From the NCBI GenBank assembly GCA_003648635.1, contig QMPQ01000004.1:1-43754 (forward strand): a stretch of 43,754 nt of DNA, given 5' to 3'. The position numbers and the translations under genes are program-made. Position 1 is the first letter of the stretch. Every line of letters starts with the position of its first letter. Below, in pieces: positions 2,208 to 42,405 of the stretch. The notes beneath the pieces are model-generated. The model was not told the origin of the DNA, ran no database searches, and saw only the letters and a list, made by a program, of their open reading frames with translations. The stretch comes from Bacteroidota bacterium (GTDB lineage: Bacteria; Bacteroidota; Bacteroidia; Bacteroidales; GCA-2748055).

Positions 2208-3791
2208 TCAATCTGTCAGTTGAAGGGTGAGCCATTGCACTTTGGGATCAGCTTCCGGGGTGAGGGTAAAGTCGACCCGCAAGTTCTGTTCTTTTCCCTT
2301 GAGAAAAAAACTTCCACGCAGTTGGTTTTCAGGGATCACCGGTCCGGTGGACACAATCTCCCCCAGCTGGTTCAATAGCTCACTGGCTTCAGACATTCTT
2401 CTTTCCCTGGAGATATCCATATAGAGATTTGCTGCCACAATATCTTTTTCCAGCTCGGGATCCCAGCTTACTATCAATTGAGCTACTTGTTCCTTTCTAA
2501 GCTCCAGAATTTCAGAAGCTGGCAAGATTCTGGGCCTGAACAAACCCTGATCGATCAGTTTACTTATCACCTTATAGTTGGCCTTTTTTACGATTCCACC
2601 AGCATAGGTAAGATTGCTGAATGCCATGATGCCTATGCCGTGCTGTGGATAGAACATATAGCTGCTTCCGAATCCGGGAAGTCCTCCGCCATGGCCCATC
2701 TCCAAGACTCCCTCAAGGTCCTTAATGCCCCTCAGACCGTAACCATATCCCTGTATCATGGGCCTGGTATCGTTCCCAAACCATTTAGAATCGCTAAGGT
2801 ACCTGGGCTTGTTCAAGCTGTGCATCTCCCTGAGCGTGCTTCTTTTAACAGGACCCGATTCAGCATCACTTCTTGCTGGCCACGCCGAAAGGTGATAAGA
2901 GACATATTTGCTGAAATCCTCAATGGAGGTAATCAGTCCACCCATGGCACCAAAAGCACCATCGTGCAGCAGAGGTTCAGCTACCCATCTTTCATCTTCC
3001 CACCAGTAGCCCTGCGCCAGAAGCTCTTCAGGAACCTCGCTGTATTCCCAGAAAGTGCTGGTCATATCCAGGGGATGCAGGATATTCCTGGTAATATATT
3101 CCTGATATGGCAGGTCTGAAACAGCAGTTATAATATGCCCGAGCAGACCAAAGCCCAGGTTGCTGTACTCATAGTGAAGGGAGGGAACAGATGAAAAAGA
3201 AATTCCTTCTTCAACCTGTCCCATTAAGGCATCATCGCTTATATCCAGGAAGCGGTCACCCCAGGGATTATCTTCAGGAAATCCTGCAGTCATGGTAAGA
3301 AGGTTGAAAATAGTTATAGTAGAGGCATCTGCAGTCAGATATTTGAGCTGTTCTAATTCAGGCATATACCTGGAGACAGGATCTGACAGAGAGAGCTTTC
3401 CCTCATCCCTCAGTTTCAGGATGGCCATGGCCGTAAAACTTTTAGTCATGGATGCGATCCTGAAAAGTGAATGTTCCGTAACTGAAGAGCCGGTCTCCAA
3501 ATTGGTGACTCCAGAAGCCCCAAAAAAGACCAGTGAATCATCCACCACCAGGCCATAGGCTATACCAGGGAGATGCTGATTTGCTGAGTATTCTATATAA
3601 TAGTGATGTGATTCCGCCAGGGCTAAGCCTATTTTTTGAATACGCTCCTGCTCTTTGAACACGGGAGGGACATAGCTAGTTGAGAATTGATTGGGCGCAG
3701 CTTTCTCTGCAGACTCATGTCCGGATCGCGTAGAGCATCCGCACAGGCACAGCAGGATTATGTTCAGGAAAATCAGTGGTATAGATTTCAT
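2208..3791 (-). CDS. Serine beta-lactamase/penicillin-binding-like hydrolase, lipoprotein
   Basis: This is a class C beta-lactamase-fold serine hydrolase of 527 residues. The start chosen is the ATG of MKSIPLIFLNIILLCLCGC, which restores a Sec leader with a probable lipobox cysteine near 19. The longer open frame to 3905 runs into the preceding GH2 gene and has no leader. The catalytic motifs are all present: SMTK at 114-117, YSN at 209-211 and HGGG from 366. A C-terminal extension of about 120 residues follows the catalytic domain. This superfamily includes D-aminopeptidases, esterases and beta-lactamases, so the substrate is open; a deacylase or esterase acting on decorated glycan would fit the neighbours but is inference. 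The gene lies 22 bases after GH2. Confidence 0.88.
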   Translation of the reverse strand: MKSIPLIFLNIILLCLCGCSTRSGHESAEKAAPNQFSTSYVPPVFKEQERIQKIGLALAESHHYYIEYSANQHLPGIAYGLVVDDSLVFFGASGVTNLETGSSVTEHSLFRIASMTKSFTAMAILKLRDEGKLSLSDPVSRYMPELEQLKYLTADASTITIFNLLTMTAGFPEDNPWGDRFLDISDDALMGQVEEGISFSSVPSLHYEYSNLGFGLLGHIITAVSDLPYQEYITRNILHPLDMTSTFWEYSEVPEELLAQGYWWEDERWVAEPLLHDGAFGAMGGLITSIEDFSKYVSYHLSAWPARSDAESGPVKRSTLREMHSLNKPRYLSDSKWFGNDTRPMIQGYGYGLRGIKDLEGVLEMGHGGGLPGFGSSYMFYPQHGIGIMAFSNLTYAGGIVKKANYKVISKLIDQGLFRPRILPASEILELRKEQVAQLIVSWDPELEKDIVAANLYMDISRERRMSEASELLNQLGEIVSTGPVIPENQLRGSFFLKGKEQNLRVDFTLTPEADPKVQWLTLQLTD

Positions 3792-3813
3792 AGTGCTGCA
3801 GCTTTGGATTGAA

Positions 3814-6588
3814 CTATTCAAACAATAGAGTGGGATCCAGGGGGTAGCGACCGAATAGTTTTCCGTAGATGGCCAGTCCACCGGGCATTCCTTCATCCAC
3901 CTCAAAGCGGATGTTCAGCTTTCCGTCAGGTGAATTACGAAGCAGTTCAAGTGGAATATTTGATTTAAGGAGGTAGCCATAGGAGCCGGCTTCCCTGAGT
4001 AAGCCATCCTGTAGTTGCGAAAACCAGGAGAGCACTCCCCGGTGATCTGCAGGATCATCTTCCAGGTAGAAGACATCGACCACTTTGCCGTTTACTTTTA
4101 CTTTTACCAGACTTGCATACTTGTAGCTATCCGTCATAGGATAGGAATTGGGATTCCGGCTGGGATCGAAAGTGCCTCTTCCCTGCATGTAATCAAAGCC
4201 CAGGTTACTTTTATCCTTCCTGTCCTTGCCGTGAAGTTTTTTCGCAGATGCTTCGAAAACGAGGGTGACCTTCCTCACTGTATCCAGGTTCAGGGAAGCT
4301 GGAAGCTCTACATCGTAGGAGAAAAAACCTTCTCCTGCACCATTTACTTTCAAGCCATCCAGGATGTTCCACTGGCCATCGGACCATGAAGCTTCCGTGA
4401 AGGAGGAAGGTGCAAAGGGTACCTGGTGAGTTTCTTCAGGCTGATCCGGACCGGACTGTTTCCGTTCTTCCACCAGGAAGCTTGTAAAGTTCAGGTGATA
4501 GATATAGGCATTTTCGTCACGTAGCCTGAGTGTCAGGTGATAAAGCCCTGGTGTTTCGGGCATTCGAACAGAAAGGGGGGTCACCTTGCCATTAAAATAG
4601 GGGAGGGATTCAAGTATTTCACTTTTCAGGAATATGTGACGAAATTTTCCCTGGTGGTCCCTTCCCGATAGTTCATAGTCAAGAATATAGTGATCGGGCG
4701 GTACCTGATCGGTCATCACCGACAGGAAGAGAGGAACCTTGATCAGTCCGTCGGGTCTCACAGACTGGCAGAGTTTTGATCCGGTGGACAGGTATACATC
4801 ACTGTGCATGTGCCGGAGCTCCATGTCAGGAATGAAATCATTAAATCCTGTATATTTCTCAGTGCGGTCAAATTTATAGTAGCCGTTCCACTCATTAATT
4901 ACATCGTGATGTTCGGTGTAGAGCCATCCGGCAACCTGCGGGTGCTGCCTGAATTCATTCATCATGATATGGTAATCCCAGCTCCAGTCCACATCTCCAG
5001 TACTTCCAGTATAACCCCACACATTCCCGCATTCACTGTTGAGCATGGGGACCTTTGTCTGTTTGTTACCCCCGATAAAGTTCCATTCAGAACCTGCATA
5101 GGTATTATCGACCACATTATCGAGAAAATCGCTCCACTTATAACCAGGCAGGTAAGCGTGCCATGTATTGAGATCGGTTAACACATGATCATAGTTACAG
5201 GGAGAGTTATCCTCAATGAGCCGGCTTTGATCAAGCTCTTTGGCCTGGACAAATTTCTCCCTGACCCAGTCCTGGGTTTCACTAAGGTAGGCACGATCTT
5301 TTCCCTTGCCTGAAAAGAGTCCCCAGGTTTCATTAAACAGAACCCAGGAGAATATGGATGGATGATTATAGTCACGTGCAATCATCTCCCGCATGGCATA
5401 TTCCCATTCCTGCCTTGCTTCCTCATCGGGTTCACCCCAGAAATTGGGAACATCTGCCATAATCAGCAAACCCAGTTTATCGGCCCAGTATAGTTTGCGG
5501 GGCACCTCTACTTTGATATGAATCCGGTTGCCATTGAGGCCTATTTTTTTGGATCTGATAATTTCATCCCGCATAAATTCATCACTGGGATAGGTGTAGT
5601 ACCCATCGGGGTGATAAGCCTGATCAAGACTCAGTTGCAGGTAAATTGGCCTGTTGTTCAGAGCCACATATGGCAGGTCAGTTCCAGGAAGATTCATAAT
5701 GCTGATCTTACGCATGCCAAAATAGGTGGAGAACTCATCATATACGGTCTGGTTGTTGTGAAGCTGGACTTTCAGATCATAGAGGTAAGGATTGTCCAGA
5801 TCCCAGAGTTGTGGGTTAGGAATTGTGACTTCAAAATCTACCTCCTGCATCTTTTTTCCAATCTTCGGTGAGGAGATCATTCCTGCCAGTTCTTTGTTGG
5901 GAAATGAGAGATTTATATAGAGGTCCTCTTCAGCACTCTGGTCCAGCACTGCGTGTACCCTGACCGAACCATTGTCAATGTCCGGAGTGAAATGTATATG
6001 TTTCAGTGCAACGGATCCCCTGCTTTCCAGATAGACGGTTTGCCAGATTCCTTTGGCTTCACCATAACCCTGTTTTCCCTCCAGTTTAAAGGGGTGTGGA
6101 GTATCATCCACACGCAAAACCAGCTGATGGACCTTCCCGGGTGTGGTAAAATGAGTAAGATCAAATTCAAAGGGGGTATATCCACCCCGGTGCTCACCCA
6201 CAAATTCGCCATCGATCCAAACGCTTGTAAGCCAGTCACATGCTCCGATTACCAGAAATCTTCTTTTACCACTCCAGTCTTCCGGAATAGTCAGTGGGCG
6301 GCTATACCAGGCCATATGAGCCAGGTCTTCCACTCCCGAAAGCTTAGAACCCCAGGGGAATGGCACTGTTATTTCTTCAGTGAATATGGGATGGATATAC
6401 CACTGTTCTTCCACTCCCACATCAAGACTGTCGAATTGAAATTCCCAGGAGCCATTAAGGTTGATCCAGGCCTCACGCTGGAAATCAGGACGGGGATGCT
6501 CGGGCAGGGGGATGTCCTGTGCATGCATATTCACACTCATTAGGATGATGGCAAGAACCTGGGTTCCTGCAAGTCGGACTCTGTTCAT
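3814..6588 (-). CDS. Glycoside hydrolase family 2 enzyme, secreted
   Basis: This is a GH2 enzyme of about 924 residues with the usual order: leader (1-23), sugar-binding jelly roll (about 30-195, with WINLNGSWEF and AWYSRPL), immunoglobulin-like domain (about 195-300), and TIM barrel (about 300-600). The acid/base glutamate is at about 420 in SWVLFNETWG and the nucleophile at about 519 in PMLNSECGNVWG. A C-terminal extension of about 300 residues follows. I use the ATG at 6588; an in-frame TTG two codons earlier is less likely. GH2 covers beta-galactosidases, beta-mannosidases and beta-glucuronidases. The GH26 and GH130 neighbours suggest a beta-mannosidase-like role, but the sequence alone does not settle it. 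Confidence 0.92.
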   Translation of the reverse strand: MNRVRLAGTQVLAIILMSVNMHAQDIPLPEHPRPDFQREAWINLNGSWEFQFDSLDVGVEEQWYIHPIFTEEITVPFPWGSKLSGVEDLAHMAWYSRPLTIPEDWSGKRRFLVIGACDWLTSVWIDGEFVGEHRGGYTPFEFDLTHFTTPGKVHQLVLRVDDTPHPFKLEGKQGYGEAKGIWQTVYLESRGSVALKHIHFTPDIDNGSVRVHAVLDQSAEEDLYINLSFPNKELAGMISSPKIGKKMQEVDFEVTIPNPQLWDLDNPYLYDLKVQLHNNQTVYDEFSTYFGMRKISIMNLPGTDLPYVALNNRPIYLQLSLDQAYHPDGYYTYPSDEFMRDEIIRSKKIGLNGNRIHIKVEVPRKLYWADKLGLLIMADVPNFWGEPDEEARQEWEYAMREMIARDYNHPSIFSWVLFNETWGLFSGKGKDRAYLSETQDWVREKFVQAKELDQSRLIEDNSPCNYDHVLTDLNTWHAYLPGYKWSDFLDNVVDNTYAGSEWNFIGGNKQTKVPMLNSECGNVWGYTGSTGDVDWSWDYHIMMNEFRQHPQVAGWLYTEHHDVINEWNGYYKFDRTEKYTGFNDFIPDMELRHMHSDVYLSTGSKLCQSVRPDGLIKVPLFLSVMTDQVPPDHYILDYELSGRDHQGKFRHIFLKSEILESLPYFNGKVTPLSVRMPETPGLYHLTLRLRDENAYIYHLNFTSFLVEERKQSGPDQPEETHQVPFAPSSFTEASWSDGQWNILDGLKVNGAGEGFFSYDVELPASLNLDTVRKVTLVFEASAKKLHGKDRKDKSNLGFDYMQGRGTFDPSRNPNSYPMTDSYKYASLVKVKVNGKVVDVFYLEDDPADHRGVLSWFSQLQDGLLREAGSYGYLLKSNIPLELLRNSPDGKLNIRFEVDEGMPGGLAIYGKLFGRYPLDPTLLFE

Positions 6589-6623
6589 TATCAAAGCTTT
6601 ATTTTACAACAATAATCTAAGGA

Positions 6624-7727
6624 TCATTCTGAAATGGCCACTCCCACATAAGAGTCGGCTGTTCCATAATAGAGAAACCACTTGGATTGATAGTATACCA
6701 GTCCTTCAGCAAAGGTGGTCCCCGATTTATACTGACCTGTAAGTTCATGTGGCAGCGTAGGTCTTAGCAGGCAGGTATCGGAACGAAACAGAACTTCTTC
6801 GGGATTGGCAGGATCAAAAACAATTTTTCCAACTGAATAGGTTCCTCTGGGCAGATCAGGAGAGGCATCATCACCATCCGAATTCTTGCCATTGTAGAGC
6901 AGAACAATGCCCTCCTCTAAAATTACTGCCGGGGGCCCACATTCAGTGAGCATGCTATCGAAATACCCGGGCCGTGTTTTAATGATCGCCTCCAGTTCGC
7001 CCTCCTCATCGAGAGCAGGATACCAGTCGTAAAGATTCTCTGACCAGGCCAGGTTGATAAACTGTTCGCCCCAGTACATCCAGTACTTGCCGTCAATTTT
7101 AGCCACCACCTGATTCTCACCTTCCAGACGGGTGATAATGGAACCCGATTTGGACCAGTTTCCCATAAATTTGCCGTCGTAAGCATTTGCGAAAGCAGGC
7201 CCCTTTTTCTCCCAGTTTATAAGATCGGTAGAGTGGGCAATACTTAGTCTGGCCACATCATTGTTCCATGAGGTATAGGCCATCACATACAGGCCTTCTT
7301 CGGTGACGACCACTCTGGGGTCCTCACAACCACCCGGATAATCGTACTGCAGAAACTGTCCGCTATCGGGATAGAGAACAGGGGTAGGGTAGATCTCAAA
7401 ATGAAGTCCATCTTCACTGGTAGCCAGTCCAATCCTGGAAGTACGACCGCCAAGGATGGCCTCAGGATTGTCTTCTGCTCTGAATAACATATGGATCTTA
7501 TTGTCCTTTACTATGGCAGCCGGATTAAAAACATCCGCCTTCTGCCACTGTACCAGTTCATTTTTAACTGGACAGAGAAATGTATAGGATGAGTCAGCAC
7601 TCATGATGGGATTTTCTTCCGGCTTATAGAAATTCAGGAATGCCCCTTTGGTTTCGCTTGTGGGTTTGACGCCTGTGGTACATCCTGCAATCAAAAGCAG
7701 TGTTAGTAGATAGATAAATTTTTTCAT
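6624..7727 (-). CDS. GH130 beta-mannoside hydrolase/phosphorylase, lipoprotein
   Basis: This five-bladed beta-propeller protein of 367 residues matches GH130. It carries the family signature PGGCEDPRVV at 131-140, with the aspartate that serves as catalytic acid in the family, preceded by DVFNPAAIVKDNKIHMLFRAED and followed by the C-terminal FAEGLVYYQSKWFLYYG segment. The leader ends in LLIAGC, so it is a lipoprotein exported from the cytoplasm. Known GH130 members are phosphorylases or hydrolases of beta-1,2- and beta-1,4-mannosides. Exported members in Bacteroidota tend to be beta-1,2-mannosidases, because little phosphate-dependent chemistry is expected in the periplasm. It sits 35 bases before GH2 and 13 bases after the TIM-barrel gene. 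Confidence 0.88.
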   Translation of the reverse strand: MKKFIYLLTLLLIAGCTTGVKPTSETKGAFLNFYKPEENPIMSADSSYTFLCPVKNELVQWQKADVFNPAAIVKDNKIHMLFRAEDNPEAILGGRTSRIGLATSEDGLHFEIYPTPVLYPDSGQFLQYDYPGGCEDPRVVVTEEGLYVMAYTSWNNDVARLSIAHSTDLINWEKKGPAFANAYDGKFMGNWSKSGSIITRLEGENQVVAKIDGKYWMYWGEQFINLAWSENLYDWYPALDEEGELEAIIKTRPGYFDSMLTECGPPAVILEEGIVLLYNGKNSDGDDASPDLPRGTYSVGKIVFDPANPEEVLFRSDTCLLRPTLPHELTGQYKSGTTFAEGLVYYQSKWFLYYGTADSYVGVAISE

Positions 7728-7740
7728 GTTTTCTTTGAGT

Positions 7741-8664
7741 TTATGCCTTGTTCCATGCTTTTTTCATAAGTTTTTTGGTGATCAGGATACCCTCGTGCTC
7801 GCTCTTCTCCATTCCCTCGTATTCTATACCGATGTAACCATTGTAATCAGACTTTTTTACAATCTTCATCATCCTGTAATAGTCGATCTTAGTATCCTCG
7901 CCCTGTTCATTGAAATTATAGGACTTGGCACTAACTGCTTTGGCAAAGGGAAGGAGTTCGCTTACTCCCTTATACCTGTCATATTCTTTGTCGCAATCTC
8001 CCTGGGTAGTACCCCATTTGGCAGAAAGGCACCAATTCCCGAAATCCGGAAAGGATCCAAAATTAGGTCGGTTCACTTCTTTGATAATCCCCGCAATCAG
8101 GGTAGCATCAGAGCTGAAAAGTCCGTGGTTCTCAATCACAATATTGACATCTGATTTTGCAGCATAATCGGCCAGTCTGGCCATTCCATCCATGATGGCC
8201 ATCCGGTAGATATCCCTGTCAGCATCGCCAAAGGCATTTACCCGCATGGTAGGACATCCCAGGAGTTTAGCAACATTGATCCATTTATAGTGATTCTCCA
8301 CTGATTTCAGACGCTCTTTTTCACTGGCAGCTCCCAGGTCCCCCTCATCATCGACCATCAGTACCAGGTTTCTTACCCCGGCGTTTGCTGAACGTGTTTT
8401 CATATTGTTCCAGAAAGCTTCGTCATTTGCCTTGTCCGGGTACAGGCCGTTTACAAATTCAACCGCATCAATCCCATATTTCTCCATGGCAATAGAGGCA
8501 AAATCGACCGGATCCAGGGAACCGTCTCCAAAACTCCGGTGCAGTGACCATTGCGCCAGTGATATCTGTAGTGCTTTTTCTTGAAAGCTACATGCAATCA
8601 ATGGGGTGGTAGCCAACGCAGTTGCGCCCATTGCGCTGTTTCTGATAAACGTTCTTCTTTTCAT
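7741..8664 (-). CDS. Sugar phosphate isomerase/epimerase-like TIM barrel, Tat-type leader
   Basis: This is a 307-residue xylose-isomerase-like TIM barrel (AP endonuclease 2 superfamily). The N-terminus MKRRTFIRNSAMGATALA is a twin-arginine leader with a cysteine near 25 in LIACSF, so the protein is exported folded, possibly as a lipoprotein. Likely metal ligands lie in IVIENHG, FPDFGNW and IGIEYEG. Exported members accompany Bacteroidota glycan clusters, and several act with periplasmic sugar oxidoreductases in 3-keto-glycoside chemistry. No oxidoreductase of that type is visible in this window, so the substrate is unassigned. It is co-directional with the mutarotase-like gene (35 bases upstream) and GH130 (13 bases downstream). 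Confidence 0.87.
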   Translation of the reverse strand: MKRRTFIRNSAMGATALATTPLIACSFQEKALQISLAQWSLHRSFGDGSLDPVDFASIAMEKYGIDAVEFVNGLYPDKANDEAFWNNMKTRSANAGVRNLVLMVDDEGDLGAASEKERLKSVENHYKWINVAKLLGCPTMRVNAFGDADRDIYRMAIMDGMARLADYAAKSDVNIVIENHGLFSSDATLIAGIIKEVNRPNFGSFPDFGNWCLSAKWGTTQGDCDKEYDRYKGVSELLPFAKAVSAKSYNFNEQGEDTKIDYYRMMKIVKKSDYNGYIGIEYEGMEKSEHEGILITKKLMKKAWNKA

Positions 8665-9736: not shown

Positions 9737-11113
9737 TTATTTCCATCCGGGCATTTCCTCTCTGGTAATAACAGCAGGATGCTCATATATCTCAATAATC
9801 TGCTCCTTCGTGTTACCTTGCTTGACAAGCTCGGCCCAGGGCATAAAAAAGACCCAGCGTGGTTGTGCATCAAGAATTTCCGGACTTGGGAGTCTGGAGC
9901 ACTCTCCAATAGCCATAGGTTTATCTCCAACAATTGGGAGAATGTAGTTATACCAGGAAATATCATAGCCCTGGTCGTAGATATCAAATCCAAAAATATC
10001 CCAGTATTCGTTTCCCGGATTATATTCTTCAAAATCCCTGCTCATATCCTGCATATCCCATACCCAGATCAAATTGCTCAGACCTTTGATCCATGTGAAA
10101 TAGTCATGGGTGATCCGGAAAAGCTCTGCAGTTCCCTGGGGCCCGGGCTTGCCTCCCCACCAGAATAAGCCCTGGTTCATCTCATGGAAGGGTCTGAAGA
10201 GGACCTCCACACCATTGTCTTCCAGATACTGGAGGTAGACAGCAACATCATCCATACGTTCTTTCCAAAGCTTGTTGAGAGGAGTTCCATCACTAATAAG
10301 CTCTGCCCATTGCTCATCATCCAGTTGAGCGTTTAGCAGTCCGGGATCCCATCCGCAGGGCTCCCCTAAATCAGGAGGACAGCCATGCCACATCAGGTTT
10401 ATCACAGCACCATGATCCCATTGATTTTTCGCTTCATGGATCATCTCCCATCTGTTATCAATATTATCCTGTTGAAACAAAAAATCGCCACTCCAGAGGG
10501 CTGGATATTGCCCTGTGGTTTCCTTTATAAACCGGATCCACTTGTCCGGATCAGCATTTGGTTCCTTGTTATGCTGACCAGCCAGAGTCTTCTTGCCTGA
10601 GATACTCTTGATAAAATCCAGTGATTGCTTAGATTGTGCATTTGCTTTTGATGGCAGTTTTTGACTTGTGTGATCCACCACAATCTTCCATTCCCCATCG
10701 ATCTTTCTCCAGATCAATAGGAAATGCCCGCCCGGCCGGTCATGTTTCCGCTCCAGCTCCCAACTTCCAGTGAGGCTCACAACTTCTTTGCTTTGCTGGG
10801 TCATATCTTTAATCTGAAAGCTTAGCTTGCCCATGGTTTCCTTGTCCGGATAGCCTCTTTTATAATTTTCAAGTGTCTGCTGCCAGCCCCTGGTGATTCC
10901 ATTTGCTCCGCCAAACTGCAATTCTTCAGAGTTCCAGTATGCCTTCATAAAAGCATCAATATCTCCCTTGTTCCAGTCTACTTCCTGCTGGAAAAAGATC
11001 TTCTTGATTTCCTCAAAGTCTTTGTTGTTTTCCTGAGCCTGACTAAGTGTGCTAAAAGAGATCAGGCAGATCATCTGCATCAGTATGTTGCCTGGCAATT
11101 TTTGAATTTTCAT
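9737..11113 (-). CDS. DUF4440 (NTF2-like) domain fused to GH26 beta-mannanase
   Basis: This is a 458-residue secreted protein with two parts. Residues about 30-150 form an NTF2-like DUF4440 domain (DWNKGDIDAFMKAYW, then HFLLIWRKIDGEWKIVVDH). Residues about 163-458 form a GH26 (beta/alpha)8 barrel with the acid/base glutamate at 311 in RPFHEMNQG and the nucleophile at 404 in PMAIGECSRLP. GH26 contains endo- and exo-beta-1,4-mannanases and some beta-1,3-xylanases. A leader ends near SQAQ (24-27) and has no lipobox. The ATG overlaps the stop of the NAGPA-type gene by four bases, implying translational coupling. DUF4440 at the N-terminus of a glycosidase is unusual. Confidence 0.92.
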   Translation of the reverse strand: MKIQKLPGNILMQMICLISFSTLSQAQENNKDFEEIKKIFFQQEVDWNKGDIDAFMKAYWNSEELQFGGANGITRGWQQTLENYKRGYPDKETMGKLSFQIKDMTQQSKEVVSLTGSWELERKHDRPGGHFLLIWRKIDGEWKIVVDHTSQKLPSKANAQSKQSLDFIKSISGKKTLAGQHNKEPNADPDKWIRFIKETTGQYPALWSGDFLFQQDNIDNRWEMIHEAKNQWDHGAVINLMWHGCPPDLGEPCGWDPGLLNAQLDDEQWAELISDGTPLNKLWKERMDDVAVYLQYLEDNGVEVLFRPFHEMNQGLFWWGGKPGPQGTAELFRITHDYFTWIKGLSNLIWVWDMQDMSRDFEEYNPGNEYWDIFGFDIYDQGYDISWYNYILPIVGDKPMAIGECSRLPSPEILDAQPRWVFFMPWAELVKQGNTKEQIIEIYEHPAVITREEMPGWK

Positions 11114-11931
11114 TTTTCAAGTATTAATAATGCATTTGCCACAGGCCGTTCGCCTGTTTTATCACTGGGTATATTCACAAGTCCTTTATCTTTAAGCCAC
11201 ATGCTTGTGGACCCTCCACCATCCAGGTTTATAGCATCCTGACAACCAATTTCAAGCAGGAATTGTTGGACTTCATACAGGTTCATTCCGGCTGCCGTTT
11301 CGGAGCGTCCATCAATTGTGGCGCAGATGATAGATTCTTCAGTGATACCCACACATGTTCTCGGATGGCGATTGTTTGTAAATTTCATATCAGGCAGATC
11401 CTGTAGGATCGCATCTTTGATCAGCAAAGGACCGCTTACCATCACAAAGGCTTCCATTTTAGAGTCCTCATAACTGTGATGCAAATTAGCAGAATCTATC
11501 TCCAAAATGTTGTTTTTATACAAAATTATTGAGCCGTTAGTTAAACTATCAGGTACAGCCCATTTTAAGCCAGGTGTTCTGCTTCTGCTGATCACGGAAT
11601 CATTTATTTCAAAATAGCTAACACTACCACCACTGTCCATATTAAAGAAGCCACCATTGATTGCAGCCCTTGCATTCCTGTTCTCCGCAATCTGGCTTGT
11701 TCTTAATAGTTCAGATGTTTGGTAGGCAAACTCTATGCTGTATTTATGCAGATATTCTTTAGCTACTATTAAGAGATTGATTCTCTGAGGACTGTCATAT
11801 AGTGAGTCTGTTTCAATCTGAATATGAGTAAGGAAATCATTGTCAGTCAGCCAGGCTTGCTCAGTCGTCTGGCCATAGCTATAGAAACCTAAAAGTAAGA
11901 ACGTGAGGGTGATTAGGCTTGTTAACTGCAT
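11110..11931 (-). CDS. NAGPA-domain phosphodiester glycosidase family protein
   Basis: This is a 273-residue secreted protein of the NAGPA (formerly DUF2233) family, named after the mammalian uncovering enzyme that removes GlcNAc from GlcNAc-1-phospho-6-mannose. Conserved motifs are INGGFFNMDSGGSVSYF near 91-107, NRHPRTCVGI at 187-196, TIDGRS at 205-210 and the hallmark INLDGGGSTSMW at 234-245. The leader MQLTSLITLTFLLLGFYSYG has no lipobox. Bacterial members hydrolyse sugar phosphodiesters, for example in cell-wall or exopolysaccharide turnover. Sitting next to GH26 and GH130 genes it may unmask phosphomannosyl groups, which is inference. It follows the S9 peptidase gene by seven bases and overlaps the GH26 start. 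Confidence 0.9.
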   Translation of the reverse strand: MQLTSLITLTFLLLGFYSYGQTTEQAWLTDNDFLTHIQIETDSLYDSPQRINLLIVAKEYLHKYSIEFAYQTSELLRTSQIAENRNARAAINGGFFNMDSGGSVSYFEINDSVISRSRTPGLKWAVPDSLTNGSIILYKNNILEIDSANLHHSYEDSKMEAFVMVSGPLLIKDAILQDLPDMKFTNNRHPRTCVGITEESIICATIDGRSETAAGMNLYEVQQFLLEIGCQDAINLDGGGSTSMWLKDKGLVNIPSDKTGERPVANALLILEK

Positions 11932-11938
11932 TGTTTTA

Positions 11939-14188
11939 TTACTCCCATTTAAAATTCCAGAGGGGTTCTACACCCAGGAGATGCTCCACAAAATAGTTCC
12001 ACCTGAGTCTGGTAAAATATTTCTGATGCGCACCCTGATATCCATGCCGTTGACTGGGCAGGATAAGCATGTCAAATTGCTTATCAGCCTTAATAAGTGC
12101 TTCAGCAAGCTTAAATGTTGCCGATGGATTAACGTTCTCATCGATGCCTCCATGTGTAATAAGCAACTTTCCTTTCAGCTTCCCGGCCATAGTGATGTTT
12201 GATTGCAGGTGATAGGCAGAGTCAACCGGCCAGCCCATATACATTTCCGGCCACCAGGCCTTTTCCATTCTATGATCATGGTCGGCCGAACTCGCTACTG
12301 CCACTTTATAAAAGTCAGGATATGCCAACAAGGCATGTGCAGCATCATAACCTCCGGCCGAATGACCGAATATCCCGATACGTGATGTGTCAATCCAACT
12401 ATAGCGCTCACCCAGCTGACGAATAGCACCCACATGATCTTCCAGATTACCACCAAGGTTCTTATAGGAGTAGTTGTGGAAGTGCTTTGAACGGCCCGAT
12501 GATCCGAGTCCGTCAACAACGATGGCCACAAAGCCCAGCTCAGCATATGATTGAAGTAGAAATGCTCTTGAAAAGACCGTAGGGAAGAGCTGAGTATGCG
12601 GCCCCGTATAACTGAGTTCCAGGATGGGGTATATTTTTTCAGGATCAAAATTACTTGGTTTCCAGAGAGCCCCGTAAAGGGTGGTTTCACCGTCACGAGC
12701 CAGTGTAGTAAATATCTCCGGGGGAGTCCATCCATCCAGGAGGCTTACATCTGCATGTCCCAGTTCCAGAGTTATTTCACCTGATTCCAGTTCCCTCAAG
12801 GCCGTGGTGGTCTCTACATTAACTGTGGAAAAATTATCAATAAAGTAAGACCCGTCCGGCGAGATGCTGATTCTGTGATTGCAATCTTCTTCACTTAGCA
12901 ATTTCAGATCTCCACCATTGAAGGATACGCTATAAAGATGTTGATAGTAAGGATTCCTATCCTTCTCCTTACCGGAAGCGAGGAAATAGATTAACTGTTG
13001 TTCTTCATCAATTCTTTCGATGCTGTTTACATAAAAATCCCCATGGGTGATTCTGGTCTCAATTTTGGTTTCCAGGACAAGACTATATAATTGTCGCCAG
13101 CCACTTTTCTCGGACAGGAAAAACAGAAGTCCGCTCTTTTCAGCAAGCTCATGGGTGAAGTTGTCAATATTGGTTGAGCTGGATTCCGAATACAGGGTTT
13201 CCACACGCTCTGTCTGAAGATCGAAAGTGTAGATGCTGTAATCTTGATAGCCCCGATTGGACCTGCTCAGATAAACCTTGCCAGGGGTACTGGACCACTC
13301 AACATATACATCATTGATATGCGTGCTTCTGGGCAAATCAGGTTTGATCTCGGAGCCACTATGCACATTAAAGAATACCGGCTCCATATAGATCATTGTT
13401 GTATCGCCGGGAGATCCGCGATAGTAGGAGAGCAGCCTGGGCCTGTAAAGGGAGTCCACACTCCAGTCGAGCAGGTACATTTTTTGCGCACTCCGGAGAT
13501 CACATATATTCGTCTGAATCCATTCGCTATCTTCAGACCAGCTTACATCAAAATGTTCGGGTCGCTCCCCATTTTCACCCTCCATAATATCATACCACCC
13601 ATACCTGGATGCATATTCGTATCCCTTTTTCCCTGAGGAACTGAGTTGCTTCTCCTTATTGTTAAGCTCAGATTTAACATAAAGGTTGTAGTCTTTTTGA
13701 TAAGCAATCCAGTTTTTGTCAGGAGACACCTCCTCCTTTTCATTTTTCTCCTTTTTAGGAGGTGCACTTAATGCATAGGTATCTGTATTCAGAACAAAAG
13801 TCTTCTTCTCCGCACTTATTAATAGTTCTTTGGAATTCCTGTATTCGACTTTTGTAAGTGGCAGCATATCTGCCTTCAATTCAGAACCCAGGGAATCGGA
13901 TAGAATGGCAGCCAGCTTCTGATGATCAAAGAGATCAGATCTAAGCATAGCGGGTAGAGTTATCTTATGATACCTTTTTTTTTCGGGACTTTGATGAACA
14001 TACCACAGCCCGGTGCTGTCCGGAAACCAGTTTGGCTGAATATGCAGGTTAAACACCTTCTTGTTATTGAGGTTTTCCCCGAGGAAGCCTACAGCACGAC
14101 TGTAATCATCTAAGGATATACTATCCTGGCTTGCAAGTATTTGAGGAATGAAGAGGACAAAGGCCAGTAGAAATTTCGAAGCTTTCAT
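11939..14188 (-). CDS. S9 family prolyl oligopeptidase/DPP IV-like peptidase
   Basis: This is a 749-residue secreted serine peptidase. A leader (about 1-19) precedes a DPP IV N-terminal beta-propeller (about 90-490) and a C-terminal alpha/beta-hydrolase domain. The triad is visible: Ser610 in GHSAGGYDAAHA, Asp683 in HGGIDENV and His715 in LPSQRHGYQG. The segment IVVDGLGSSGRSK is also typical of S9B/S9C enzymes. Such enzymes cleave dipeptides or short peptides in the periplasm. Being first in the minus-strand run, it may deal with the peptide part of a glycoprotein or may simply share the promoter. The length is usual for DPP IV-like proteins. Confidence 0.93.
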   Translation of the reverse strand: MKASKFLLAFVLFIPQILASQDSISLDDYSRAVGFLGENLNNKKVFNLHIQPNWFPDSTGLWYVHQSPEKKRYHKITLPAMLRSDLFDHQKLAAILSDSLGSELKADMLPLTKVEYRNSKELLISAEKKTFVLNTDTYALSAPPKKEKNEKEEVSPDKNWIAYQKDYNLYVKSELNNKEKQLSSSGKKGYEYASRYGWYDIMEGENGERPEHFDVSWSEDSEWIQTNICDLRSAQKMYLLDWSVDSLYRPRLLSYYRGSPGDTTMIYMEPVFFNVHSGSEIKPDLPRSTHINDVYVEWSSTPGKVYLSRSNRGYQDYSIYTFDLQTERVETLYSESSSTNIDNFTHELAEKSGLLFFLSEKSGWRQLYSLVLETKIETRITHGDFYVNSIERIDEEQQLIYFLASGKEKDRNPYYQHLYSVSFNGGDLKLLSEEDCNHRISISPDGSYFIDNFSTVNVETTTALRELESGEITLELGHADVSLLDGWTPPEIFTTLARDGETTLYGALWKPSNFDPEKIYPILELSYTGPHTQLFPTVFSRAFLLQSYAELGFVAIVVDGLGSSGRSKHFHNYSYKNLGGNLEDHVGAIRQLGERYSWIDTSRIGIFGHSAGGYDAAHALLAYPDFYKVAVASSADHDHRMEKAWWPEMYMGWPVDSAYHLQSNITMAGKLKGKLLITHGGIDENVNPSATFKLAEALIKADKQFDMLILPSQRHGYQGAHQKYFTRLRWNYFVEHLLGVEPLWNFKWE

Positions 14189-14949: not shown

Positions 14950-17352
14950 CTACTTAAGTTCGAAATCTACCACCACTGGCAAATGGTCTGATAAGATAAG
15001 GGCCGTATCACTTGTGATAATTTCTGCTCTGGTAACTTCTATTGCCAGGTTTTTAGATGCGAAAATATAATCCAGTCGACGTTGATCCCCATGTTCGCCC
15101 TCTTTTTCTACCAGGGTAGGGAAGCTGCCCGGAAACTTATAAGTGGTGGTACGCAAACTGGCCTCAAGATCAACAAGCCCAAAGTCCAGGACATCCTGGA
15201 TTACTGTATAATCAAGTTCCCCTTTATTCAGGTTATTCTCTTCATACATCAAATCACGCTCCTTGAAAAAAGGCCCTAGCCTGCCATGGGAATAATAGAT
15301 GGAATCGAGTGGTGAGAAAGTATTAAAATCCCCGGCTAAAATTACTTTCGAGTTTGCTGGTAATGTTTTAATATCTTTCAGGATCTGATTGATTTCACTC
15401 TTCCTGGTTTCCCAGTTGGATGGATGTAAATGAATCACATAGAAATAGATGTCCTTGATTCTTACCCTCATCAGGCCATGATGGAAGCCTTGTGTTACTC
15501 GCTGTACATCTTCAATAGGATATCTTGAAGTAATACCGGTTGGAAATCCATCTTCTTTTAGTAATACACTATAAGGATGGCCATAGCTCTTTGCATCTTC
15601 CGCTAGTTTTTCTTGGGTATATTCATTGAGTTCCTGTAGAGATACAATATCGGCATCTTGTCCAGTCATCCATACAATCCAGCTCTCTTTTCTTTCGGGC
15701 ACCTTGGTAAATCCATACCAGACATTGTGGGTGATGATTCTAAGATTTGCGGATTCATTATCAGCGCTTCTTTGAATTTGAGGTTTAGAATATCTCCATC
15801 CTTTCTTGAGTTGTTGAGACAAGGCTTCAACAAGATCCTTGTGTTCAGGATTGGCAGCTATGTTTATATTTTCCTGTGGATCGATCTGATGGTCGAATAG
15901 CTCATTAACTAAAAGATCGCCCGGCTTATTCTCCTCTTTTATCCAGCTGTACCACTCCACATACCTGTATCGATCAGTCCGAATGGCATAGCCCATTTGT
16001 TCTCCTTCAACCGTAGTTGTGCGACCAAAGCGACCTAAAAGGAACTGACTATAAGCAGCAGTTTTCCATTCCTGATCAGGATCAGCTAACAAGGGGACCA
16101 GGCTTGTTCCCTGTAAATGGTCAGAAACAGGGAAATTCGCCATTTCGCATAGTGTAGGATAGATATCTACAAATTCAGTCAGTGCATTGCTATGTTGTCC
16201 TTTTGCTTTCACACCTGCTCCACTAATCAGCAAGGGGACCCGGGTGTCAATCTCATAGTTTGTCTGTTTGCACCAACCGTTATGCTCTCCCAGTTTCCAG
16301 CCATGATCACCCCAGAGCACAACAATGGTGTTCTCTGCCAATCCAAGCCTCTCCAGCTCATCAATGAGTCTTCCGATTTGTGCATCCGTATAGGAAACAC
16401 TGGCATAATAGCCATGCTTTATCTCTCTTTGCCGGTCTTCATCCCAGGGTTCTTCATTGGGCAGGGGGAGGTCATGGGAATCAGAATACCCCCGCAGCTC
16501 TGCTTCGCCATGAACAAGGTAAGCCGGGCTCCCTTCTGGTATAAATTGATTTTCAGCCAAAGGTATTTCACTTCGATCATATAGGTCCCAGTATTTTTTA
16601 GGGGCATTGAAGGGGAGGTGGGGCCTGTAATAGCCAACCGAAAGGAAAAAAGGTCTGCCATCAGATTTTAACTCCTGCAGGATTTCTATGGCCCGTGTGG
16701 TCTGAGCCCCGTCATAATAGGCATCATCATCCACATCTGCATTCTCAGTGGCATTTGCTTTCACATACCAGTGTCCCAGCTGATCAATCCTGGATCTCCC
16801 CTCTGCCTTTAATTGCTGAATCTTCATTTGTTGGATCTCCAGGTTTTCTGCATTGGCATAGACGGCGTCCGGATCAAAGGGGAAACCCTCTATATTCTCT
16901 GGAGTAATGGACCATGATATGGTATCCGGATCGTTGTTATGAAAAATTTTACCCAGGGCAATCGTTGTATATCCTTGTTGCTTGAAATACTGGGGAAGGG
17001 TAACCACGTCGGGTACATTATCCCTGAAGTCTGTTCTCAGATCCCAGACCTGAATGGAGTCAGGACGAAGACCGGTAAGGAGGCTGGCTCTTGATGGATT
17101 ACACACAGCCTGCTGGCAATAGGCCCGGTCAAAAGTGACTCCTTGCCTGGCGAGACGATCCATGTTTGGTGTTTGAACGAAGGCATTCCCATAGGCACCA
17201 AATTCGGGGCGAAGGTCATCTACCGGGATGAACAGGATGTTTGGCAATGGTTTATCTCCCTCTGAATTTGAATTCTTTATGGAACAGGAGGCCATGATCA
17301 AAATCAAAAGAGACAAAAAAGAGTGGGACAGACTAAGTCTAAAATGTTTCAT
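14950..17352 (-). CDS. Iduronate-2-sulfatase-like sulfatase fused to EEP-family domain
   Basis: This 800-residue lipoprotein (cysteine 23 in LIMASC) joins two enzymes in one frame. Residues about 35-520 are an S1 sulfatase close to iduronate-2-sulfatase types: metal aspartates at 45-46 (PVDDLRPEFGAYG), the formylglycine site C84-N-P-S-R88, LGKIFHN, and WGDHGWKLGEHNGW. Residues 537-800 are an endonuclease/exonuclease/phosphatase domain: ITHNVWYGF, Glu574 in SLQELNEY, HLHPSNW, GDFN at 674-677, RLDYIFAS, and SDH at 788-790. EEP folds cleave phosphate esters or phosphodiesters. I infer removal of both sulfate and phosphate groups from one glycan outside the cytoplasm. The sulfatase needs formylglycine maturation encoded elsewhere. 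Confidence 0.93.
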   Translation of the reverse strand: MKHFRLSLSHSFLSLLILIMASCSIKNSNSEGDKPLPNILFIPVDDLRPEFGAYGNAFVQTPNMDRLARQGVTFDRAYCQQAVCNPSRASLLTGLRPDSIQVWDLRTDFRDNVPDVVTLPQYFKQQGYTTIALGKIFHNNDPDTISWSITPENIEGFPFDPDAVYANAENLEIQQMKIQQLKAEGRSRIDQLGHWYVKANATENADVDDDAYYDGAQTTRAIEILQELKSDGRPFFLSVGYYRPHLPFNAPKKYWDLYDRSEIPLAENQFIPEGSPAYLVHGEAELRGYSDSHDLPLPNEEPWDEDRQREIKHGYYASVSYTDAQIGRLIDELERLGLAENTIVVLWGDHGWKLGEHNGWCKQTNYEIDTRVPLLISGAGVKAKGQHSNALTEFVDIYPTLCEMANFPVSDHLQGTSLVPLLADPDQEWKTAAYSQFLLGRFGRTTTVEGEQMGYAIRTDRYRYVEWYSWIKEENKPGDLLVNELFDHQIDPQENINIAANPEHKDLVEALSQQLKKGWRYSKPQIQRSADNESANLRIITHNVWYGFTKVPERKESWIVWMTGQDADIVSLQELNEYTQEKLAEDAKSYGHPYSVLLKEDGFPTGITSRYPIEDVQRVTQGFHHGLMRVRIKDIYFYVIHLHPSNWETRKSEINQILKDIKTLPANSKVILAGDFNTFSPLDSIYYSHGRLGPFFKERDLMYEENNLNKGELDYTVIQDVLDFGLVDLEASLRTTTYKFPGSFPTLVEKEGEHGDQRRLDYIFASKNLAIEVTRAEIITSDTALILSDHLPVVVDFELK

Positions 17353-22899: not shown

Positions 22900-23682
22900 A
22901 TGAATTTTCCAATAACACATGTTCCTGAAAGAACTACGGGTAAACGCGATTTCGGTCTGACCATGATGATGGATAAAGGTTTAAGTCTGAAAGAATCTGA
23001 ACACTTTATCGAATCCAGTGCACCCTATACCGACCTGGTTAAGTTCGGATTTGGAACAGCACTGATTACCCGCGATCTGAAAGAGAAGGTGAAACTCTAC
23101 CAGTCGGCCGGATTAAAACCCTATTTCGGTGGAACCCTCTTTGAAATGTTCTATGTGCGTGGTGAGTTTGATGCTTACAGAAAGTTTGTGTCCGAATCGG
23201 GACTGGGCAATGTGGAAGTTTCGGATGGTACCATTAAAATGGATCATGATGAGAAACTGGAATGTATTTCCATTCTTGCTAAAGATTTTGAGGTGCTTTC
23301 TGAAATCGGTAGCAAAATAAAAGGAGTGGAGCTATCTAATGATATTTGGGTCTCTCATATGAAAACGGAGCTTGAAACCGGGGCATGGAAAGTAATTGCC
23401 GAAGCCAGGGAGAGCGGCACCATTGGGATCTATGAGTCCGATGGTTCAGCCAACAGGGAACTGATTGATGACATCATGAAAGAGATTTCAGTAAATGATG
23501 TATTGTGGGAGGCCCCTCTTAAGGCCCAGCAGACAATGTTTATTCAGCTGCTTGGAGCCAATGTAAACCTGGGGAACATTGCTCCTAACGAAGTGGTCTC
23601 CTTAGAGGCACTTCGATGTGGCATGCGAGGAGATACATTCTTTGATGTATTGCCCGAGGAGTTTCACACCAGAAAACAATAG
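22900..23682 (+). CDS. comA: Phosphosulfolactate synthase (ComA)
   Basis: This is a 260-residue TIM barrel of the ComA family, which adds sulfite to phosphoenolpyruvate to give (2R)-phospho-3-sulfolactate, first known from coenzyme M synthesis in methanogens. Nearly every family motif is present: TMMMDKGLSL (21-30), DLVKFGFGTALI (45-56), FGGTLFE (76-82), VEVSDGTIKM (105-114), EARESGTIGI, WEAPLKAQQ, GANVNLGNI and LRCGMRGDT. Bacteroidota do not make coenzyme M, so the product probably feeds another sulfonate, such as sulfolactate or a sulfonolipid precursor; this is inference. It is translated in a tight operon between the TPR and DUF368 genes. Confidence 0.93.
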   Translation: MNFPITHVPERTTGKRDFGLTMMMDKGLSLKESEHFIESSAPYTDLVKFGFGTALITRDLKEKVKLYQSAGLKPYFGGTLFEMFYVRGEFDAYRKFVSESGLGNVEVSDGTIKMDHDEKLECISILAKDFEVLSEIGSKIKGVELSNDIWVSHMKTELETGAWKVIAEARESGTIGIYESDGSANRELIDDIMKEISVNDVLWEAPLKAQQTMFIQLLGANVNLGNIAPNEVVSLEALRCGMRGDTFFDVLPEEFHTRKQ

Positions 23683-33085: not shown

Positions 33086-34924
33086 ATGGGTAAAAAGTTA
33101 CTAATATCGTTTACGGGACTATTATTATTCGGCGTACTACTGAATGCTCAGAACGACTTTACTGCCAGAGCACCAGCTGTTGTCAGGGTAGGTGAACAGT
33201 TCCAGTATGTGATAGAGGGCTCAGAACGTGGCGATATTAGATTTCCAGCCATGGATAATTTTGATTTGCTTGGCGGACCATACTCCTCATTTTCGTCACA
33301 TTCACAATGGATCAACGGGAAGATGACTCAAAAAACGCTGGTCTCCTATACATATATATTAAGTGCACTTAGGGAAGGAAGTTATATTATTCCGGCCAGC
33401 ACGGTCAAAGTGGGACGCAAGGAATATCGTACCAACGTGATAGAGCTTGTAGTCAACGCATCTGGAAGTGGTGCAGCGCCGGATGGTGCCGGCAGAGACC
33501 AACAGGGAGTGGAAGATGGATCGGGTATTAATTCATCTGATGACAATGCTGTATTTCTGAGGGTGCTTCCTTCAAAAAAGGAGGTCTATGTAGGAGAGCA
33601 GTTTGTCTCCGCATTGAAAGTGTATACCAGGGTAAATACCCGTCCTGGTTCAGCAGCCAGTGATCTACCCTATGAAGGTTTCTATAAGCTTAGTCTGGAT
33701 GCTGATGCTACAGCGCAGCAAGAGGAGATCAGTGGTCAGGAATATGTAACCCAGGTAATTCAACGACATATATTAATTCCACAGAAGACGGGTAATCTGG
33801 AGATTACACCTTACGAATCCGATTGGATGATTCCTCAAAGGGTACAACGACAGCGAAGCAATAATCCTATAGATAATTTCTTTGATGATCCGTTTTTCAA
33901 TGGAATCCAGGAGGTGCCAGTCACCCTTGCAACACGTCCGGTGATCATTCGTGTGAACCCTCTGCCATCAGGTGCACCTGTAGGTTTTACCGGGGCTGTA
34001 GGTGAGTTCCAGATGAAAGCATCGCTCTCAAGCAATGAAATAGGGGTGAATGAAGCCTTGAGCCTGAAAATTATCATCAGCGGCGCAGGCAATCTTCCCT
34101 TATTGGGTGAACCCGAAGTGAATCTTCCACCTGATCATGACCTTTATGATGTGACGCGCTCTATTCAAAGAAGCACCTCGGGGAACCTGATTTCCGGATC
34201 AGTTACTTTTGAGTATCCGATTATCGCCAGACATGCAGGACGTTTCAGAATTGCCCCAGTGCAGTTTGCCTGGTTCGATCCCAAAGCTGGATCTTATAAG
34301 ACAGCTCTTACAGATGAGTTTAACTTCACCGTGGTAAAAGGAGAAAATGATGATACATCAGATGGGATCTATCAACCAGGTGTGGTCCATGAGAGTGTAA
34401 AAGATCTGGGAATTGATATCAGGGATATATCCCGGATTTCTCCAGTTTTCTCCAGTGTAAAAAACTCTCTGTTTGGGAGCTTAGCATACCGTTTGGTCTA
34501 TCCACTTGGCCTTATCCTCACACTTGTGCTAATAGTATTAATCAGTGTTGTGGCCAGAAGAAACGCAGATCTTACACTGGTACGCAACCGCAAGGCGGGC
34601 AGATCGGCTCGTGCCAGGTTAAAAAAGGCCGACCGTTTCCGAAAGTCGGGTGATCCGGATAGGTTTTATGAAGAAATCGGGAAAGCCATATGGGGATACC
34701 TCTCCCATAAACTGAATATTGAAACATCCGGGCTTTCAAGAGAAGTGATTCTTGAACACCTGGAGCTTAGGAAGGTGCCGGAGGAACCGCAAAGCGAGTT
34801 ACTCAGAATCCTGGAGGAAAGTGAGTTCTCCAGGTTTGCGCCTACCTCTGAAAGAATTGACATGAACACACTCTACAGCGATGCTGCACAATTAATCAGG
34901 AACCTTGAAAATACTCTGAAATGA
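33086..34924 (+). CDS. batD: BatD, oxygen-tolerance family membrane protein
   Basis: This 612-residue BatD has a leader (1-21), a long periplasmic region of repeated immunoglobulin-like beta domains (about 22-460; FTARAPAVVRVGEQFQYVIE, then PSKKEVYVGEQFVSALKVYT, and a third near 310), one membrane helix at about 474-493 (LVYPLGLILTLVLIVLISVV) and a cytoplasmic helical tail with ARARLKKADRFRKSGDPDRF. This layout matches the BatD family. The gene's TGA overlaps the batE ATG by four bases, so batE translation is probably coupled. Confidence 0.94.
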   Translation: MGKKLLISFTGLLLFGVLLNAQNDFTARAPAVVRVGEQFQYVIEGSERGDIRFPAMDNFDLLGGPYSSFSSHSQWINGKMTQKTLVSYTYILSALREGSYIIPASTVKVGRKEYRTNVIELVVNASGSGAAPDGAGRDQQGVEDGSGINSSDDNAVFLRVLPSKKEVYVGEQFVSALKVYTRVNTRPGSAASDLPYEGFYKLSLDADATAQQEEISGQEYVTQVIQRHILIPQKTGNLEITPYESDWMIPQRVQRQRSNNPIDNFFDDPFFNGIQEVPVTLATRPVIIRVNPLPSGAPVGFTGAVGEFQMKASLSSNEIGVNEALSLKIIISGAGNLPLLGEPEVNLPPDHDLYDVTRSIQRSTSGNLISGSVTFEYPIIARHAGRFRIAPVQFAWFDPKAGSYKTALTDEFNFTVVKGENDDTSDGIYQPGVVHESVKDLGIDIRDISRISPVFSSVKNSLFGSLAYRLVYPLGLILTLVLIVLISVVARRNADLTLVRNRKAGRSARARLKKADRFRKSGDPDRFYEEIGKAIWGYLSHKLNIETSGLSREVILEHLELRKVPEEPQSELLRILEESEFSRFAPTSERIDMNTLYSDAAQLIRNLENTLK

Positions 34925-40869: not shown

Positions 40870-42405
40870 TCAATCGAAATTCTGGTCAAGATATTCCAGG
40901 CGAAGTGCAGTCCATTGAGTAAAATACAGGAGTTCCTGATCGATGTCGATGTCCACACCCTCCCATCTGTTGTTTTCCCGTTCAATGGCTCCACTCTGTT
41001 TCAGCAGATCTGTATATAACCGGGCAGGAGCCAGCAGTGAATCCAGTTGAAAGATGGATTCCCGGTAATGCTCCCACCTGTCTTCCAGCAGATCGTTGAA
41101 CTCTTCCACATCCAGCTCCATAAGTCGCTTATAAAGATTGTTTTCAAGCATGCCATTGGAAGTGCTTTCTCCTCCATGCCACATGATTCCCCAGGAAGCC
41201 TCCAGGTCCCAGGGCATTATCAGGAATCGGGATTCATCCGCATACCTGGTCAGGAAGTAATTTTTGATGATGTTGTCGTGGGCCAGAAGCAGGTTGGTAA
41301 AGAGGTAGTAGTCTGCTGCAGCATCCAGGTTGAGCAGGGTGTCAATCTTCACTATGAACATTTCGTCCTCATCCAGGACCACAGTTTTTCTAAGTTCAGC
41401 AAGGGGTTCCCAATGGTAGAGATGATCTGGATAGACCTGCTCCCAGCCATCCCATATCATGGATGAGCCGGGTTCACTGGAATAGCTTTGAAAAGCGGTG
41501 GCTCCTCCGTTCCAGTCAATGGCCTTGTAGAGAACTCCTTCCGCGCCGGCAGCAGCAGAAAGGTTGATCAAAGTTTCATCCAACCTTTCTGAGAGACAGT
41601 AGAGCCCCATATATCTCTGGTTGATAAACAGCTCTATGTACTCACATTGAATACCGGGATTAAGCGTTCTGAATGGCGTTTCATGCTTACTTTCCCACAT
41701 CTTCTCCCAGATTTCAAATGAAAGCTTATTGCGCATACGCAGGGGATCGATATACATGGCATCCAGAATCCAGTCTTCGCCATTCCTCAGACCCAATAAT
41801 GGTGCCTTTCTATCCTTCCCATAGCTGTCTTCCCATAATTCCAGGCCATAGGCCTTTTTCTCATGCAAAGCAGAGGTCCTGCCACGAATTTCTATTCCGG
41901 CATAACTTGTATAAACACGCGTCTCGCTGGCTCCATCCTTCACATTCGCATAAGCAAGTTCCATCGATGAAAGCACCTTGGGTTCATCTGGAATCATTAT
42001 TTCAGTTTGAATTTGAATCAGTGGTAGCTTTGTGAAATAGAGCTGATAGCTATCTGTTATATTGCCACTTCGGGCAGTCACAATATAGGGGCGGTTAAGT
42101 ACCACTTCACCCAGATCGTTCTCTTCATTCTCTTTCAGTTCGATACCATCGATTTCAACCGATTGATAAGCTCCGAAGCATACTAAAGGCGAGAATGAGC
42201 TGATGGTATCATATGGCAGGGTATAGAGTAGCAGATGCTCTTCCAGATCGGTAAATGCAAATACCCCATCAAATCCAAGTACCCGCAAGGGCATGCTCCA
42301 CACCTCGGGCTCCTCCAGGGGCATCTCCTTGTAACAACTCTCCATAAGTACAGCAGCAAAAGCTACAAGGAGGAAGATTGTCTTATAAGGGCCCGGAGCA
42401 ATCAA
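40870..42405 (-). CDS. CotH-kinase family lipoprotein
   Basis: This is a 511-residue exported CotH-family protein. The start is TTG, whose TGA overlap with the DUF2490 gene (TTGA) gives the leader MIAPGPYKTIFLLVAFAAVL and a cysteine near 24; the next ATG would lose it. An N-terminal beta domain (about 30-165) precedes the CotH kinase domain (about 165-480), with RGRTSALHEKKAYGLELWE, MRNKLSFEIW, YMGLYCLSERLDE, LLLAHDNIIKNYFLTR and MPWDLEASWG, the last providing the likely metal aspartate. CotH proteins are atypical secreted protein kinases, first known from spore coats. The targets may be the neighbouring beta-helix or barrel proteins, which is inference. Confidence 0.9.
   Translation of the reverse strand: MIAPGPYKTIFLLVAFAAVLMESCYKEMPLEEPEVWSMPLRVLGFDGVFAFTDLEEHLLLYTLPYDTISSFSPLVCFGAYQSVEIDGIELKENEENDLGEVVLNRPYIVTARSGNITDSYQLYFTKLPLIQIQTEIMIPDEPKVLSSMELAYANVKDGASETRVYTSYAGIEIRGRTSALHEKKAYGLELWEDSYGKDRKAPLLGLRNGEDWILDAMYIDPLRMRNKLSFEIWEKMWESKHETPFRTLNPGIQCEYIELFINQRYMGLYCLSERLDETLINLSAAAGAEGVLYKAIDWNGGATAFQSYSSEPGSSMIWDGWEQVYPDHLYHWEPLAELRKTVVLDEDEMFIVKIDTLLNLDAAADYYLFTNLLLAHDNIIKNYFLTRYADESRFLIMPWDLEASWGIMWHGGESTSNGMLENNLYKRLMELDVEEFNDLLEDRWEHYRESIFQLDSLLAPARLYTDLLKQSGAIERENNRWEGVDIDIDQELLYFTQWTALRLEYLDQNFD

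Follow-up and report, generated by a model that had tools for sequence, protein, structure and literature searches.

The gene at 11110–11931 of the window (the whole stretch of 43,754 nucleotides analyzed here) probably codes for a NAGPA-family phosphodiester glycosidase that is exported and, in the explanation that we favor, is a member of a secreted glycan-degrading cassette in this species and two congeners (Table 1). The arrangement is ordinary but locally informative, as the older partners of NAGPA are other genes of the same sugar-degrading cluster. NAGPA and the GH26 domain that adjoins it are not a conserved gene pair, a result that holds at the level of the genus, the order and the phylum.

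Table 1. Features of the NAGPA locus, with positions in the window
Feature	Position	Strand	Description	Evidence
Beta-lactamase-fold exported hydrolase	2208..3905	(-)	Downstream end of cassette	PF00144 E 4e-61; same place in G299
GH2 glycoside hydrolase	3814..6594	(-)		PF00703, PF02837, PF02836
GH130, BT3780-like beta-1,2-mannosidase candidate	6624..7727	(-)	Lipoprotein	NF058598, 5a7v, D136/E221/E262
Sugar-isomerase-like TIM barrel (AP_endonuc_2)	7741..8664	(-)	Exported	PF01261 E 4e-23
P3	8700..9683	(-)	Exported protein	Conserved in genus (51–81%)
GH26 domain of fusion	9737..10659	(-)		PF02156 E 9e-39; Muricauda GH26A 6q75 E 2e-58
Signal peptide and NTF2-like (DUF4440) part of fusion	10660..11113	(-)		PF14534, 3b7c, stand-alone homologues
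ATGA overlap	11110..11113	(-)	NAGPA stop with next start	Read from sequence
NAGPA-fold phosphodiester glycosidase	11110..11931	(-)	273 aa, signal peptide	PF09992, motifs, fold match
S9 prolyl oligopeptidase	11939..14188	(-)	7 bp upstream of NAGPA	
Sulfatase fused in frame to EEP-family phosphatase	14950..17352	(-)		PF00884, PF03372

An earlier note on this DNA had named NAGPA, GH26 and GH130 enzymes, and all three family assignments stand. The NAGPA protein matches PF09992 across positions 2–168 of the 169-position profile (E 4.7e-35; 121.7 bits compared with a Pfam cut-off of 25) and contains the conserved motifs NGGFF (residue 92), RT (191), DGR (207) and NLDGGGS (235). A structural model built from an alignment of 10 homologues, of modest confidence (mean pLDDT only 57.7) and weak over residues 96–187, aligns with Bacteroides ovatus BACOVA_00430 (PDB 3ohg) with a Z score of 17.4 and with guinea-pig NAGPA (6pku) with a Z score of 16.8. 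The next unrelated structure in the comparison scores 2.6.

Support for the cassette comes from the genus. The window has its isomerase–GH130–GH2 arrangement in common with G125 (81–84%), G299 (83–90%), G303 and G300. In G125, the genes run EEP, SIMPL, P3, isomerase, GH130, GH2 and MaoC, and NAGPA, NTF2 and GH26 are absent; the slot that holds EEP, a SIMPL-domain gene and P3 in G125 is occupied in the window by the sulfatase–EEP fusion, S9, NAGPA, the NTF2–GH26 fusion and P3. Two congeners carry NAGPA at the same locus. In G306, a 3-keto-disaccharide hydrolase joined to a sulfatase is followed by EEP and then, after 9 bp, by NAGPA at the contig end. The G299 contig begins inside NAGPA and leads into the GH130/GH2 cassette, with an NTF2 fragment, P3, isomerase, GH130 (90%), GH2, beta-lactamase and MaoC; no GH26 follows NAGPA. 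Joined, the congeners would give the order 3-keto-disaccharide hydrolase, sulfatase, EEP phosphatase, NAGPA, NTF2-like, P3, isomerase, GH130 and GH2. As both genomes are incomplete (80% complete for G299 and 65% for G306) and their evidence lies at contig edges, the window is the sole contig in which the NAGPA flanks are intact on both sides. Since no NAGPA orthologue was found in the other 15 genomes of the genus that were searched, NAGPA is dispensable for the cassette.

Other parts of the locus vary, with the GH26 domain, the S9 peptidase and both the NTF2–GH26 and sulfatase–EEP fusions seen in this genome only. The S9 peptidase is absent between EEP and NAGPA in G306; in the rest of the genus, its best match is only ~40% identical and located elsewhere. 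In G125 and G306, EEP forms an independent gene that carries a signal of its own, and in G306 it directly precedes NAGPA; the G306 sulfatase instead shares one ORF with the 3-keto-disaccharide hydrolase. Profile searches with P3 returned no Pfam or PDB relative. At the downstream end, the TTG start listed for the beta-lactamase-like gene gives it a 92-bp overlap with GH2; translation probably begins instead at an internal ATG, as it does in G299. Elsewhere in the window, a gene for a ComA-like phosphosulfolactate synthase family protein (22900–23682) adjoins a TPR gene and is conserved in the genus.

How much can be read from the overlap between NAGPA and the next gene? The earlier note was correct that the two genes share four bases, as the downstream gene starts at 11113 and the bases ATGA are common to both. 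Its description of the partner as a GH26 gene holds in part: a GH26 domain is present, but the gene (11113–9737, minus strand) is a fusion in which a signal peptide and an NTF2-like/DUF4440 domain (approximately residues 27–150) precede GH26 (155–453), and the overlap touches the NTF2 end. The further claim that the overlap signals coupling between NAGPA and GH26 was rejected, since exact four-base overlaps occur in 3 of the 27 same-strand neighboring pairs in the window, on which alone this frequency was computed (the others are at 34921–34924 and 42402–42405), and in G299, the closest congener, the end of NAGPA and the beginning of NTF2 share no bases. In L029, a NAGPA relative has a four-base overlap with an unrelated gene that encodes a tRNA-editing domain. 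The overlap is normal operon packing and provides no evidence for a dedicated NAGPA–GH26 unit.

The NTF2-like part of the fusion matches PF14534 with an E-value of 3e-5, just below the cut-off, and PDB 3b7c with an E-value of 1.4e-28. In the GH26 part, candidate catalytic residues are the acid/base E311 (HEMN) and the nucleophile E404 (GEC). A search of 295 order-level and 28 family-level genomes found the full fusion in this genome only, every other match covering just one part; NTF2-like genes stand alone in G300 (71% identical) and G304 (66%), and a GH26 gene stands alone in G064 (55%). A frameshift or assembly artefact is an unlikely source of the fusion: given an open frame and a linker that lacks a second signal peptide, a simple indel joining two neighboring secreted genes is improbable. 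The NTF2-like gene of G299 (L144:207–600) is 76% identical over residues 11–129, ends near residue 130 just before P3 and is separated from the next gene by a short sequence. As the gene stops there and the gap is short, a deletion is possible, and the G299 gene may be decayed or partly deleted. Either the NTF2 gene acquired GH26 in this lineage, or G299 lost it.

Beyond the genus, the earlier proposal that NAGPA and GH26/GH130 might be neighbors in other Bacteroidota found no support. No GH26 or GH130 relative was detected near nine close NAGPA relatives (51–57% identical; Bacteroidales, Calditrichota, KSB1, Polaribacter, Draconibacterium and Saprospiraceae), two of which are on contigs of only ~4 kb, and the NAGPA–GH26 pair was absent from 11 further order-level NAGPA neighborhoods and 8 GH26 neighborhoods (in this set, G260 duplicates L026). 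A sample of 394 Bacteroidota genomes included 138 with NAGPA and 85 with GH26; 28 besides the source genome contained both, and coordinates of both were listed for 26. Among the matches listed, on which this comparison rests and which leave weaker NAGPA matches outside, NAGPA and GH26 lay within 200 kb of each other in none of these 26 genomes, the nearest spacing being ~264 kb (G509). A GH26 domain adjoining NAGPA was seen in this genome only. For GH26, then, the conserved linkage whose absence the earlier note had named as counting against its idea is indeed lacking, and since there is no such linkage, the adjacency says little about the NAGPA substrate.

The GH130 protein closely resembles a beta-1,2-mannosidase. 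It matches NF058598 with 487.8 bits and 5a7v with an E-value of 2e-109, and its residues D136/E221/E262, spaced by 85 and 41, match D142/E227/E268 of BT3780. The Asp and two Glu make BT3780 a hydrolase rather than a phosphorylase and replace the phosphate-binding residues (PMC4599007). From these residues, the protein is likely a BT3780-type beta-1,2-mannosidase; as the score is below the NCBIfam equivalog cut-off of 550, this function is likely rather than assigned. Since Candida beta-1,2-mannan chains are attached via phosphate bridges (PMC4599007), a phosphodiester glycosidase beside a BT3780-type GH130 would be chemically sensible, and by analogy a phosphodiester-bearing mannoside is a possible target. 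The failure to find NAGPA in most GH130-bearing congeners and the solitary position of its relatives beyond the genus count against this target. NAGPA could act in the periplasm or at the surface, where hydrolysis of a glycosyl-1-phosphate diester would release the sugar and leave a phosphomonoester behind. EEP may act on the phosphoester, and GH130 and GH2 would trim sugars from the non-reducing end. That NAGPA, the EEP phosphatase and the GH130 act in sequence on a phosphodiester-bearing beta-mannoside in the three congeneric species is, as a specific proposal, improbable; in the literature searched, we found no bacterial NAGPA described for such a step.

Might the three enzymes of the earlier note instead form a dedicated pathway for mannan bearing sugar phosphodiesters, in which production of NAGPA is coupled to that of GH26? 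The adjacency and ATGA overlap in this genome, the BT3780-like GH130 and the phosphate-bridged Candida mannan are all consistent with this reading, and the link between NAGPA and the GH130 cassette persists in congeners. However, the NAGPA–GH26 unit that it requires is missing in relatives, including G299, which has neither a GH26 after NAGPA nor the overlap. Moreover, the closest relative of the GH26 domain is Muricauda GH26A, an enzyme whose substrate is beta-1,4-mannan from a diatom bloom, not fungal alpha-mannan (PMC9860051); by this analogy, the domain points to a polymer other than Candida beta-1,2-mannan. No SusC or SusD was seen among the window proteins scanned, and as the window starts at a contig end, the cluster could extend further. 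We therefore regard a dedicated pathway of this kind as quite unlikely.

It is also conceivable, if rather doubtful, that NAGPA targets phosphodiesters of the cell's own envelope or exopolysaccharide and that its position in the cassette is incidental. Each of the nine nearest relatives outside the genus (in Bacteroidota, Calditrichota and KSB1) is a lone gene, and most lie amid unrelated genes (neighbors include a carbonic anhydrase, a tRNA-editing domain protein and a TonB receptor), and the order-level relatives are likewise scattered. Against this, NAGPA occupies the same locus, amid secreted glycan enzymes and the EEP phosphatase, in three congeners, and membership in the cassette is the reading that we prefer. 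We also note that a NAGPA relative in Calditrichota is tail to tail with a GH5 gene bearing CBM6 and CBM35 domains (L031:1821–4340).

NAGPA-family proteins are common in bacteria, as their presence in 138 of the 394 Bacteroidota genomes indicates, and almost nothing was found on their substrates; our literature search returned nothing direct on the substrates of bacterial NAGPA or on its role in polysaccharide utilization. The member described here, found repeatedly in the company of a mannosidase and an EEP phosphatase, provides a concrete set of testable substrates. As the adjoining mannanase is not common to relatives, little about function can be read from a single overlap in a single genome.

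Among solved structures, those nearest to the NAGPA protein are BACOVA_00430 and vertebrate NAGPA. Vertebrate NAGPA is the mannose-6-phosphate uncovering enzyme. Its structures (6pku, 6pki and 6u11) have the same fold as our model (Z 16 to 17) and share the glycine-rich and Arg motifs, but are only ~22–24% identical to the protein described here, which is bacterial, predicted to be exported and consists of the catalytic domain alone. BACOVA_00430, a DUF2233/NAGPA domain protein, aligns over 225 residues and shares the motifs HPRT, DGR and NLDGGGST, but is ~22% identical in the structural alignment and belongs to another genome. The GH130 protein aligns over its full length with the beta-1,2-mannosidases BT3780 and BACOVA_03624 and retains the hydrolase-type Asp and two Glu; unlike those enzymes, it has no alpha-mannan enzymes in view around it. 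The closest solved GH26 structure is that of GH26A from Muricauda sp. MAR_2010_75 (6q75); in contrast to GH26A, the GH26 domain here is fused to an NTF2-like domain and has no SusCD pair in view nearby.
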